DNA from: an uncultured Pelagibacteraceae bacterium
GTDB lineage: Bacteria; Pseudomonadota; Alphaproteobacteria; Pelagibacterales; Pelagibacteraceae
Assembly: GCA_902518185.1 (NCBI GenBank)
Contig: CABYFG010000002.1
Span: 62,001-126,000, forward strand
Length of the DNA stretch: 64,000 nucleotides
Direction: 5' to 3'
Shown: in pieces, positions 30,366-59,417 of the stretch
Position numbering within the stretch: position 1 is the first letter of the stretch
Layout: each line of letters opens with the position of its first letter
Notes under the pieces: model-generated
Database searches by the model: none
What the model saw: only the letters and a program-made list of their open reading frames with translations
Told to the model about the DNA's origin: nothing
Translations under genes and position numbers: made by a program

Positions 30366-30484
30366 TTTTTATAAAATATTTGATTATTAATCGCATAAAC
30401 ATTCACTTTTTAACGTATCAAATTTAAATAGAATTTTTTAAAATTAAATTCTAATTATTAAAAATTTTTACATTAATTAAAGAA

Positions 30485-30513
30485 TTGACATAACGTGTAT
30501 AAAAAAATAAAAA
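30485..30513 (+). promoter_or_regulatory. Candidate promoter for the 25-residue basic peptide gene
   Basis: Perfect -35 hexamer TTGACA (30485-30490) and, 17 bases on, TAAAAA (30508-30513) as a -10 with four of six consensus matches. It precedes a perfect palindrome and the tiny ORF at 30565. The rest of the gap 30366-30484 is plain A/T-rich sequence with nothing else recognised. Confidence 0.45.
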
Positions 30514-30523
30514 TAGATTAATT

Positions 30524-30542
30524 ACGAATCAAATTGATTCGT
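30524..30542. repeat. Perfect 19-base palindrome in a leader
   Basis: ACGAATCAAATTGATTCGT reads the same on both strands except for the central A: two nine-base arms around a single base. It lies between the candidate promoter and the ribosome-binding site of the basic-peptide gene. It has no following T-run, so it is more like an operator or an RNA hairpin in the 5' leader than a terminator. Confidence 0.6.
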
Positions 30543-30564
30543 TTAACTAATAAGGGAGCTAAAG

Positions 30565-30642
30565 ATGCCTAAGAGAAGAAAAAAAGCAAAGAAGGCTAAG
30601 AAAAAAGCTAAGAAAAAAGCTAAGAAAAGAAGAAGAAGATAA
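30565..30642 (+). CDS. 25-residue Lys/Arg/Ala peptide, possible nucleoid-associated protein
   Basis: Micro-ORF starting MPKRRKKAKKAK and ending KKRRRR: apart from Met, Pro and four Ala it consists only of Lys and Arg. The middle is two near copies of a 12-base unit (AAGAAAAAAGCT type). It resembles the C-terminal tail of histone H1 and very basic nucleoid or RNA-binding peptides. Support for translation: a strong GGGAG Shine-Dalgarno at 30554-30558 with six bases to the ATG, rare in this window; a promoter upstream; and a strong terminator 25 bases after the stop. Nothing else is encoded in the unit. I do not recognise a named family; binding to DNA, RNA or ribosomes is inferred from charge only. 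A functional RNA that merely contains this ORF is the main alternative. Confidence 0.65.
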   Translation: MPKRRKKAKKAKKKAKKKAKKRRRR

Positions 30643-30666
30643 TAACTTAGTATTCTTTAATAATTA

Positions 30667-30710
30667 AAACGCTTTCCATAACGATTTACGTGTGGAGAGC
30701 GTTTTTTTTT
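30667..30710. terminator. Rho-independent terminator, probably bidirectional
   Basis: AAACGCTTTCCATAACG pairs with CGTGTGGAGAGCGTTT (with one bulged A and two G-U pairs) around the loop ATTTA, followed by a run of nine T. The stem is about 15 pairs. It ends the basic-peptide unit, and the A-run on its left could serve the carD operon arriving from the right. It is by far the clearest terminator in the window. Confidence 0.88.
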
Positions 30711-31587
30711 ACTCGTCTAAGTTCTCTTCATTTTCATTAATAGTTTCCTCCTCATTTAAAGACGAAGAAGAAGTTTTTTCTACAGGAGCATCAGTTTTTG
30801 GTTTCGTGTCAACACTAACATTCCTTTTTAGAGCTTTATCTAATTTTTTTTGAGTATCTTCGGTGGATATATTCAAAATTATTTGAAATTCAGATAAAAT
30901 TCTTTCATACGCTTTCTCAAAAAGCTGTCTTTCACTGTAAGACTGATCTACCATAAGATCATCACCTTTATTTAGATCTCTTACAACTTCAGCTAGCTCA
31001 TAAATTTTACCAGAGGATATTTTCGCCTCGTACTCTTGGGCTCTTCGACTCCACATCGACCTTTTTATTTTTGGCTTACTTTTTAAAATTGAAATACACT
31101 TATTTACTTGATTTATAGTAGCCAAGGGTCTGATATGTGACTGTTTATTTACTGGAACCATTCCATTCGCTTTATCTTTTTCGAATTTTATCACATATGT
31201 TTCAACATCGATTCCTCCAATATTAATTTTTTTAAACTCTGTAATTTGACCAACCCCATGTTTTGGATAAACTACATAATCTTTTACTTTATATTCTTTT
31301 TTTTCAGTTTCCTGTTTTTTAACTTTTTTAATTTCTGGTTTTATTTCATTACTTTTTGGAATTCTTAAATTATCAGTTTTTTGATCTACTTTTTTTTCTT
31401 TATTTTTTAAAGATTTTTTTGATACAGGTTTGATGAATTTTTTAGTTTTTTTTTGAATAGTTTTTTTTACTTTAGATTTTTTTTGTTTGATATTTTTTTT
31501 TTTTGCATTTTTTTTAACAACATTTTTCTTAAATGTTTTCTTTAAAATATTTTTCAAACTTATTTTGCTCATCTTTATATTTTTCAT
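30709..31587 (-). CDS. carD: CarD-family transcriptional regulator with long Lys-rich N-terminal tail
   Basis: RNA-polymerase-binding regulator that stabilises promoter open complexes (CarD/CdnL). The conserved core spans about residues 98-260: [18 protein letters not shown] (Tudor-like RNAP-interaction domain), [14 protein letters not shown], and a helical DNA-binding part including [16 protein letters not shown]. It is 292 residues against about 170 in usual alphaproteobacterial homologues. The excess is a roughly 90-residue N-terminal tail of about half lysine ([18 protein letters not shown]) and an acidic, Ser/Glu-rich C-terminus. The ATG at 31587 (or 31572) lies inside fdxA, overlapping it by 59 (or 44) bases in another frame. 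Order fdxA-carD is standard in alphaproteobacteria. Confidence 0.9.
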
Positions 31588-53736: not shown

Positions 53737-54093
53737 ATGGCAAGAGTAAAAAGAGGAGTTACCAGCAGAGCGAAGCATAAAAAAGTGCTCAAAGCTGTCA
53801 AAGGGCAGTGGGGCAGAAGAAAGAACACAATAAGAGTTGCAAAGCAAGCGATGGAAAAAGCTATGCAATATGCTTACAGAGATCGAAGAAATAAAAAAAG
53901 AGACTTTAAGTCTCTTTGGATACAAAGAATTAATGCGGGTGTTAGAGCTGAAGGATTAACCTACTCTAAATTTATTAACGGATTAAATAAAAGTGGAATT
54001 AAAATAGATCGAAAAATATTAGCTGAGATTGCCTATGATAGTCCAGAAGCCTTTAAAATTATAGTTCAAAAAGCCCAAGCAGCATTAAATTAA
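53737..54093 (+). CDS. rplT: 50S ribosomal protein L20
   Basis: Assembly protein of the large subunit, 118 residues, starting [20 protein letters not shown], with [20 protein letters not shown] and [20 protein letters not shown]. In many bacteria L20 binds its own leader to control infC-rpmI-rplT; no such structure was identified here. It is followed by a 39-base gap to pheS. Confidence 0.97.
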
Positions 54094-57605: not shown

Positions 57606-59417
57606 ATGAATTCAAAAATCGACAACATAAGAAATTTTGCAATTATTGCTCATATTGACCATGGTAAATCAACGATTGCTGATAGAATCATTCATCATTG
57701 TGGTGGACTCAGTGAAAGAGAAATGAAAGCCCAAGTTTTAGACTCAATGGATATAGAGAGAGAAAGAGGAATCACGATTAAGGCCCAAACAGTCCAATTA
57801 AATTATAAAGCTAAAGATGGCAAAAGTTACCTTTTAAACATTATTGATACACCGGGTCATGTTGATTTTAGTTATGAGGTAAGCAGATCTTTGTATGCTT
57901 GTGAGGGTTCAATACTTATTGTAGATACAACGCAAGGGGTTGAGGCTCAAACATTAGCTAATGTTTATCAGGCTTTAGATATAGATCATGAAATAATCCC
58001 TATTCTAAATAAAATTGACTTACCTGCTTCTAACTTAGAAAAAACTAAAAAACAAATTGAGGATGTTATCGGTATAGATACAGAACAAGCCGTCGCCTGT
58101 TCTGGAAAAACTGGAGAGGGTATCAGGGATATACTTGAGCAAATAGTAAAGAAACTACCTCCACCCAAAGGAAATTTAGATGGGAATTTAAAATGCTTAT
58201 TAGTTGATAGCTGGTATGATACTTACTTAGGGGTAGTAATTTTAGTCAGAGTTATAAATGGAAAAATACGAAAAAATATGAAAATAAAAATGTTATCAAC
58301 TCAACAAGATTATATTGTGGAAAAAGTTGGAGTTTTTACGCCAAAACCAAGAGATATTAATGAGTTAAATACTGGGGAAATAGGTTTTATAACAACAGGC
58401 ATTAAGGTTTTATCTGAAACAAAAGTTGGTGATACTATATGTGAGTCATCTAAAGCTGAAGTTGAGCCTTTACCAGGATTTAAACCCAGTAAACCGGTTG
58501 TTTTTTGTGGTCTTTTTCCAGTTGATAGTTCTGAGTATCAAAAATTAAAGGATGGTCTTGCTAAATTACAACTAAATGATTCAAGCTTTTCTTTCGAGGC
58601 AGAGTCGTCTTCGGCTTTAGGTTTGGGTTTTAGATGTGGTTTTTTAGGACTTCTTCATCTTGAGATTATAACAGAAAGGTTAGAGAGAGAATTTGATGTA
58701 AATTTACTCACTACTACACCTGGTGTAGTATATAAAATAAATTTAAATGATGGAGATATCATTCATTTACAGAACCCTTCGAGCCTTCCAGATCCAACTT
58801 TTATTAAATTTATAGAAGAGCCTTGGATTAAAGCTACAATAATTACACCAGACCAATATTTAGGATCAATTATAAAACTATGTCAAGAAAAACGCGGTAT
58901 ACAAATTAATTTAAGTTATTCAGGAAATAGAGCAGTCATAATTTATGAACTTCCTTTAAATGAAGTGGTTTTTGATTTTAATGATAAAATAAAGTCAATG
59001 ACAAGTGGTTATGCTAGTTTTGATTATGAAATAATTGAATATAAAGAGGGAGATTTGGTAAAATTAGGTATATTAGTAAATTCTGAGCCTGTTGATGCAT
59101 TAGCTATGATGATACATAAAGATTTTGCACAGAAAACAGGTCGTGAAGTTTGTGAAAAATTGAAGGATTTAATTCCTAGACATAATTTTATGATACCCAT
59201 TCAAGCAGCTATAGGTGGAAAAATTATTGCAAGAGAAACAATTAAAGGTTTTAAGAAAGATGTTTTAACTAAGATTCATGGAGGAGGAGCCACAGACAGA
59301 AAAAGAAAATTATTAGAGAAACAAAAAAAAGGTAAAGCCAGATCAAAACAGTTTGGACGTGTTGAAATACCACAAGAGGCTTTTATTGGAGTGTTAAAAA
59401 TTTCAAAAGAAAAGTAA
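57606..59417 (+). CDS. lepA: Elongation factor 4 (LepA)
   Basis: Ribosome-associated GTPase of 603 residues with G1 HIDHGKST, G3 [13 protein letters not shown]4 NKIDLP and the EF-G-like domains, ending with the LepA-specific C-terminal domain ([36 protein letters not shown]). It can back-translocate ribosomes and affects initiation or biogenesis; its exact role is debated. The stop lies one base before the tRNA-Ser gene, and it starts one base after pheT. Confidence 0.97.

Follow-up and report, generated by a model that had tools for sequence, protein, structure and literature searches.

The closest described counterparts of the gene considered here are bacterial proteins that resemble histone H1. 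AlgP of Pseudomonas aeruginosa is described as an H1-like protein with KPAA repeats that is located on polyphosphate granules (PMC9239181), and size change by way of lysine-rich repeats has been described for Hc2 of Chlamydia (PMC2848022). H1-like, lysine-rich basic tails are likewise described for the actinobacterial HU proteins HupB and HupS. Tiny ribosomal proteins such as bS22, bL37 and eL41 are also very short and basic; bS22 has 33 residues, positively charged residues make up 55-65% of bS22 and eL41, and bS22 combines this charge with a large hydrophobic share and an AURKAIP1/COX24 domain (PMC10085706). At the level of RNA, points of comparison are offered by the 5' stem-loop that acts as a stabiliser of ompA, and by the candidate structured RNAs described for Pelagibacter ubique, which are conserved intergenic SAR11 elements (Meyer et al. 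2009, PMC2704228).

Here we examine a small unit encoding a Lys/Arg-rich peptide that lies convergent to carD within a stretch of 64,000 nucleotides of SAR11 DNA (the window), itself part of a Pelagibacteraceae genome of 998,717 bases in 29 contigs (Table 1). Comparison of the sequences indicates that the unit is a real small gene and that the majority of the searched ocean SAR11 genomes retain it. Like AlgP, Hc2 and similar proteins, its chain is rich in lysine and alanine (in part also proline), of low complexity, and changes in size by repeats. Unlike these proteins, most forms in f1 have 21-36 residues, no other domain, more arginine and little or no proline, and the gene has its own conserved leader, a position beside carD and no Pfam match. 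Searches with the window peptide gave no match in Pfam (E up to 10), NCBIfam or the PDB, and five of the longer orthologs described below gave no meaningful match in Pfam or NCBIfam at E up to 10; chains of low complexity are poorly served by these searches, and composition filters limit the test. With no family-model match and with this limit in mind, we describe the peptide as one that would work like an H1-like protein, and stop short of placing it in that group. It shares an H1-like basic character with the tails of HupB and HupS but lacks the HU fold (no PF00216 match), and HU/IHF genes are found elsewhere in the genomes. It resembles bS22, bL37 and eL41 in being very short and basic; unlike bS22, however, it has no AURKAIP1/COX24 match (Pfam, E up to 10), and unlike the tiny ribosomal proteins its length at the carD locus varies fourfold. 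Unlike the Pelagibacter ubique motifs, which adjoin other genes in an article whose main text does not mention carD, the unit is a neighbour of carD.

Table 1. Features of the Lys/Arg unit and its convergent neighbour; coordinates are those of the window.
Feature	Position	Strand	Basis
Conserved flank AATTAAAGAA upstream of -35	30475..30484	+	near-invariant, 76 rows
-35 element TTGACA, presumed promoter	30485..30490	+	invariant in 76/76 rows
A-rich block AAAAAAATAAAAATA holding presumed -10 AAAAAT (30509-30514)	30501..30515	+	invariant in at least 78/78 rows
Inferred transcription start	30520..30521	+	placed solely by distance from the -10; 30520 is A in 79/79 rows
19-base palindrome ACGAATCAAATTGATTCGT, read as mRNA 5' stem-loop	30524..30542	+	arms invariant in 79/79 rows; folding; genus comparison
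Shine-Dalgarno AGGGAG, 6-base spacer to ATG	30553..30558	+	30553-30564 invariant in 79/79 rows; anti-SD rank 2
CDS, MPKRRKKAKKAKKKAKKKAKKRRRR + stop, 25 aa	30565..30642	+	frame kept in 47/49 distinct inserts; ORF in 79/80 carD loci
Intrinsic terminator, stem 30668-30703, T-tract 30702-30710	30668..30710	+	best T-run hairpin in window; conserved
carD (CarD_TRCF_RID + CarD_C), convergent neighbour	30709..31587	-	Pfam E 1.3e-13 and 6.4e-20

An earlier sequence-only reading had proposed that positions 30485-30710 hold a self-contained unit with a TTGACA promoter, a perfect 19-base palindrome, an unusually strong Shine-Dalgarno, a coding sequence made almost entirely of Lys, Arg and Ala, and the best terminator of the window, and all of these parts could be located there. 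The composition of the peptide is as claimed: the CDS is the sole ORF exceeding 85% Lys/Arg/Ala among the 340 ATG ORFs of 20-61 aa in the window, with 76% Lys+Arg and 16% Ala and, apart from Ala and Met, no nonpolar residue. No ORF above this threshold was found in 50 Markov windows (highest fraction 0.52), and the composition is therefore not a product of chance. The strength of the Shine-Dalgarno is also upheld, its predicted anti-SD pairing of -8.0 (computed with an assumed anti-SD tail) ranking second among the 52 window ATG ORFs of at least 100 aa. Similarly, the terminator hairpin, at -18.8 kcal/mol, is the most stable of 375 that precede at least 6 T in the window (the next reaches -12.2 kcal/mol), and its T-tract overlaps the carD stop codon; a simple terminator scan returned counts at chance, and the terminator at 30668-30710 is missing from its list. 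In g8, g9 and f2, other sequences form hairpins at the terminator position.

The remaining parts are less exceptional when each is taken alone. TTGACA is present as claimed, its role as a promoter being presumed, and the -10 element was assigned by a consensus promoter scan, which counted 103 promoter-like sites between 21000 and 40000 where shuffled sequence gave 105.5, so that the promoter by itself is at chance level. The window has 8 perfect inverted repeats (arms of at least 9, loops of up to 3), compared with 4.25 on average over 20 Markov sequences, and 4 listed (3 sites) with at least 3 GC per arm against 0.7; as a palindrome alone, that at 30524-30542 is only moderately rare. Two further perfect palindromes lie at 53897-53917 and 58712-58730, each arm of these being 9-10 bases long with 3-4 GC. 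It is because of its conservation, rather than any one part, that the unit stands above chance.

Relatives of carD were fetched from named genomes, and among the best 80 of 446 loci, all of them SAR11 records, an intact Lys/Arg ORF opposite the 3' end of carD was found in 79; at the 80th (L088) the contig ends inside the CDS. The 79 loci encode 26 peptide variants of 22-35 aa, and at 32 of the 79 loci the peptide is identical to that of the window. The unit alignment comprises the window and 78 distinct units, L088 and one duplicate unit having been left out, and three rows are cut short in the promoter columns, which leaves 76 rows there. TTGACAT is invariant in all 76/76 rows that reach this stretch, and AGGGAGCTAAAG, directly before the ATG, in 79/79. 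Mean major-allele frequency is 0.93 in the promoter block, 0.89 from the start to the hairpin and 0.98 from the hairpin to the ATG; upstream, at 30425-30474, it falls to 0.71, with 0 invariant columns among 49 scored. Furthermore, the leader is nearer to that of the window than are the last 500 nt of carD in 76/76 loci (means 0.90 vs 0.79). The promoter, hairpin, Shine-Dalgarno and terminator are thus near-invariant and the DNA farther upstream is not. The conservation in related genomes that was proposed as a check on the unit, palindrome and terminator included, is found among SAR11 carD loci, and the lack of conservation in any relative that would have weakened the proposal is not observed. 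AAAAAAATAAAAATA, between the -35 element and the presumed start, is fully invariant, which promoter spacers seldom are. CarD of the window carries a Lys-rich N-terminal extension of ~98 residues (31290-31587, reverse strand) before its first Pfam domain.

Built from 44 sequences, a covariance model spanning 30470-30594 matches 280/397 Pelagibacterales genomes, including 116/151 of those at least 90% complete. The model under-calls, with E 0.074 for a g5 genome and E 0.72 for an f2 genome, in both of which the gene is present by position. In a class-wide search of 190 genomes under strict filters (E up to 0.1), the model found only the genome of the window and the g5 genome (E 0.074), and thus gave no match beyond Pelagibacterales in this class sample. 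Elsewhere in the class, CarD matched at 51 places, and the 30 loci fetched from these, of which some are truncated by the end of a contig, have no Lys/Ala-rich ORF near carD; two short Arg-rich ORFs near carD outside the order, at L188 (19 aa) and L203 (23 aa), passed the filter but have no Lys runs and were set aside. Phage records searched with the low-complexity filter on and IMG/VR searched by one exact pattern gave no match.

The other 117/397 genomes of the order have no covariance-model match. When 14 unmatched g1 genomes were re-tested for CarD_C, 10 gave no match and 4 had carD at a contig end; the contigs of three (L184, L185 and L186) stop within the CDS or at its edge, and that of L187 stops inside carD. 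True loss may have occurred in the 10 genomes with no CarD_C match. Among 12 unmatched f2 genomes, 10 have CarD, and 9 of these 10 have the long ortholog; in the remaining one (L183) the contig breaks off within a K-rich frame. Contigs terminate within or at the low-complexity CDS at L088, L183, L184, L185 and L186, and assemblies therefore seem to break in the gene, hiding either the gene itself or carD. An early survey of K-rich matches found full or contig-cut units in 19/25 g1 genomes; its tally of 35/41 is not a count of units, since some f2 matches fall on the orthologous gene. K-rich blastn matches elsewhere in the genome of the window and in G017 were rejected as units, being the tails of other long proteins that look FecR-like. 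In the genome of the window (L002, 577-1824, forward strand; C1 near 168,000), a 415-aa protein has a very long Lys-rich tail, and a similar protein of 440 aa is encoded at L023.

The way in which the length of the unit changes bears on whether it is protein-coding. With fixed DNA anchors on either side, 110/118 loci gave 49 distinct inserts in 13 length classes, and 47/49 inserts (11/13 length classes) are 1 mod 3 in length, the other 2/49 being 2 mod 3; the relatedness of the loci makes a formal probability unsafe. The 8 loci lacking one or both anchors (L038, L082, L088, L106, L120, L130, L144 and L148) were left out. Within the 25-aa class variation by codon position is too thin to be informative, with 8, 12 and 14 variable columns at the three codon positions (25 columns each). 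A frame kept through length changes makes a noncoding RNA unlikely, and at the sequence level the outcome that the sequence-only reading had set against itself, conserved RNA structure without translation, is not what we see. The case for a protein-coding unit is strong on this comparative evidence. At L148 (g12), on the reverse strand near 1596, a peptide-like start is followed by a Lys-rich frame that is lost after ~20 codons at an A-run, which could be either a real change or an assembly error.

Further insight is provided by longer forms of the gene at the same position. The carD neighbour is also present in other genera of the family of the window, f1, and in a second family, f2. Beside it, forms of 21-24 aa are found in g8 and g9, of 31 aa in g6 and of 36 aa in g5, and the g7 orthologs reach 50 and 58 aa with KPAAKKK-type repeats (that of L158 has 50 aa). 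Lengths run from 22 to 35 aa at the carD loci of g1, from 21 to 58 aa across the remaining f1 genera and from 40 to 91 aa in f2. In f2, 9/10 genomes with a CarD match carry, convergent to carD, a protein of 40-91 aa of the form ME[ED]LK[IV][IL]FA...KKKAKKKAAPKK..., rich in Lys, Ala and Pro and with AAPKKK/KPAKKK repeats. The ME[ED]LK[IV][IL]FA segment at its N-terminus is less basic and is absent from the short forms. Computed compositions are 53-60% Lys+Arg and 20-31% Ala for the longer orthologs so analysed, and 53-58% Lys+Arg, 20-31% Ala and 5-9% Pro for those of f2, the leaders of which retain TTGACA and a CGAATCA stem-loop. Given the shared locus beside carD and the shared TTGACA/CGAATCA leader, the microprotein and the H1-tail-like protein are most simply explained as one orthologous gene. 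The proposal that the unit is self-contained and encodes a basic micro-protein of histone-H1-like type is thereby backed both by conservation and by longer AAPKKK/KPAAKKK orthologs at the same locus. In a tree of CarD, f1 and f2 are separated with strong support and short forms fill g1, g8 and g9; 7/27 inner branches are open, and g5-g7 cluster with weak support (84/36). We infer, with a caution that these open branches and this weak grouping impose, that shortening within f1 rather than lengthening would be the simpler story.

The palindrome had been put forward as a DNA regulatory site; we consider this less probable than an mRNA 5' stem-loop. A DNA operator, through which a repressor or an activator would control the gene, would be compatible with any reading of the peptide, and it draws on the perfect dyad of the window, on the invariance of the arms and on a position directly downstream of the promoter. 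However, the spacer between the arms is 2 nt in 21/79 rows and 3 nt in the remainder, and position 30524, which faces an invariant T, carries only purines (A in 30 rows, G in 49), so that A-U or G-U pairing is kept. The palindrome is found at a single place per genome in 6/9 genomes and in its exact form is absent from the other 3. In addition, the 3' arm differs in g8, g9, g5, g6 and g7 (that of g8 and g9 is GATTTG, whose pairing requires one G-U, and in g5 and g7 the stem is shifted inward with a new 3' arm), yet the potential to form a hairpin is retained. The predicted pairing of the GAATC arm is at least 0.92 in g1, g8, g9 and f2, 0.79 in g6, 0.58 in g5 and 0.38 in g7, and tails with single bases shuffled matched the observed arm pairing in 18/1320 trials. 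Within g1, one-sided (G-U) changes occur, and 0 pairs are changed on both sides among 44 sequences. The unit shows strong structure (z -4.25). Together, the single place per genome, the tolerance of G-U, the shifts of the 3' arm and the shuffled-tail trials favour an RNA stem-loop near the presumed 5' end, and an operator appears rather improbable. A stem-loop so placed, together with a strong Shine-Dalgarno, is reminiscent of the ompA stabiliser, but in this unit the sequence of the 5' arm is itself conserved, and any stabilising effect would be putative.

Folding of the leaders also bears on translation. Mean unpaired values predict a Shine-Dalgarno that is masked in f2 (0.11), g5 (0.03) and g7 (0.01), open in g8 and g9 (0.98 and 0.86) and partly open in g1 and g6 (0.36 and 0.41). 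Because of this predicted masking, the deeper lineages (f2, g5 and g7) could plausibly control translation through the leader. The f2 leaders (L174-L182) possess a second element, ACCTCTAAC, upstream of the G-rich Shine-Dalgarno and predicted to help mask the latter, and CTCC is present in the leaders of g5 and g7.

For the function of the peptide we favour, with slightly better than even confidence, a minimal H1-tail-like polycation that would bind nucleic acid without sequence specificity. The TTGACA promoter would drive a one-gene transcription unit, yielding a short mRNA of perhaps ~190 nt in which a stem-loop at or near the 5' end would be followed by the strong Shine-Dalgarno, the 25-codon Lys/Arg/Ala frame and a strong terminator set against the end of carD. 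The stem-loop would most likely stabilise this mRNA or help to gate its translation. The peptide would then bind the nucleic-acid backbone non-specifically, presumably with DNA as its main target, and help to compact or neutralise the nucleoid beside HU/IHF, as has been proposed for bacterial H1-like repeat tails. Genes of the HU/IHF family (PF00216), separate from the unit, are retained in 10/10 genomes examined, which is why the peptide would be expected to act beside these proteins. Ala and Met as sole nonpolar residues, together with drift in repeat number, make non-specific binding of the backbone in the manner of an H1 tail the best reading, and lengths of 21-91 aa with Lys/Ala repeats fit a non-specific tail better than a protein of fixed fit. 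Several observations weigh against this account: the missing family matches, the less basic N-terminal segment peculiar to the f2 proteins, the merely partial opening of the Shine-Dalgarno in the g1 fold, the weak pairing of the GAATC arm in g7 and g5, where the stem is shifted, and the loss of the frame in g12. A bolder version, which we regard as doubtful, would give most genomes of SAR11 a dedicated, abundant 'micro-histone', an H1-like tail reduced by streamlining from ~90 residues to a minimum of 21, whose mRNA leader (the 5' stem-loop, joined in deeper lineages by the masked Shine-Dalgarno) senses free peptide; if this were true, the amount of polycation would be matched to the nucleic acid of the cell.

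The main rival, unlikely as we hold it to be, is that the lineage has its own tiny ribosomal protein, or a peptide of ribosome assembly, bound to rRNA in the manner of bS22, bL37 or eL41. The Lys+Arg-rich window peptide is comparable to bS22 and eL41 in size and charge, and the predicted masking of the Shine-Dalgarno in f2, g5 and g7 would suit self-control of translation, as is known for ribosomal proteins. However, bS22 is rich in hydrophobic residues, of which the window peptide has none beyond Ala and Met; neither Pfam, with the COX24/AURKAIP1 family of bS22 included, nor the PDB gave a match; and a spread of 21-91 aa at one locus is unlike that of a chain fitted into rRNA.

A distinctly improbable alternative is a general RNA- or phosphate-binding polycation, such as an RNA chaperone or a polyamine-like counter-ion, whose role would not be centred on the nucleoid. 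The computed net charge, +15 to +25 in short forms and up to +47 in long forms, gives no preference for DNA over RNA, but the H1-tail-like repeats of the orthologs argue for DNA, if purely by analogy. A small RNA or dual-function RNA with an incidental frame is very unlikely, a plain small RNA being disfavoured: strong structure and near-invariant RNA segments would suit it, as would the strong conservation of the CDS at the nucleotide level, but the frame is held across inserts and length classes, the strong Shine-Dalgarno and the ATG are invariant, the orthologous ORFs reach 91 aa, and the unit matches none of the Rfam families at gathering scores. Least probable of all is an organiser of polyphosphate granules like AlgP, which the H1-like KPAA repeats of that protein and a PPK1-type kinase in the genome of the window might suggest, but PF02503 was found in only 3/10 genomes surveyed (G000, G012, G025, G041, G042, G043, G046, G047, G050 and G179), the other 7 of which carry the unit or its ortholog, so that such a role cannot be general if PPK1 is required.

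Among the open-access literature matches listed, the gene is not named in titles or the openings of abstracts, which is not proof of absence. What appears to be new is an H1-like chain reduced to a microprotein with a conserved leader of its own. Such a gene is easily missed, being very short, of low complexity and placed at a point where several assemblies break. Few cells on Earth are as abundant as those of SAR11, which are very small and have stripped genomes; a 25-codon polycation gene that is kept beside carD likely does something that these cells retain. The unit is thus a testable candidate for a part in SAR11 DNA packing or ribosome tuning, and it illustrates to what extent a chain of H1-like type can be shortened.
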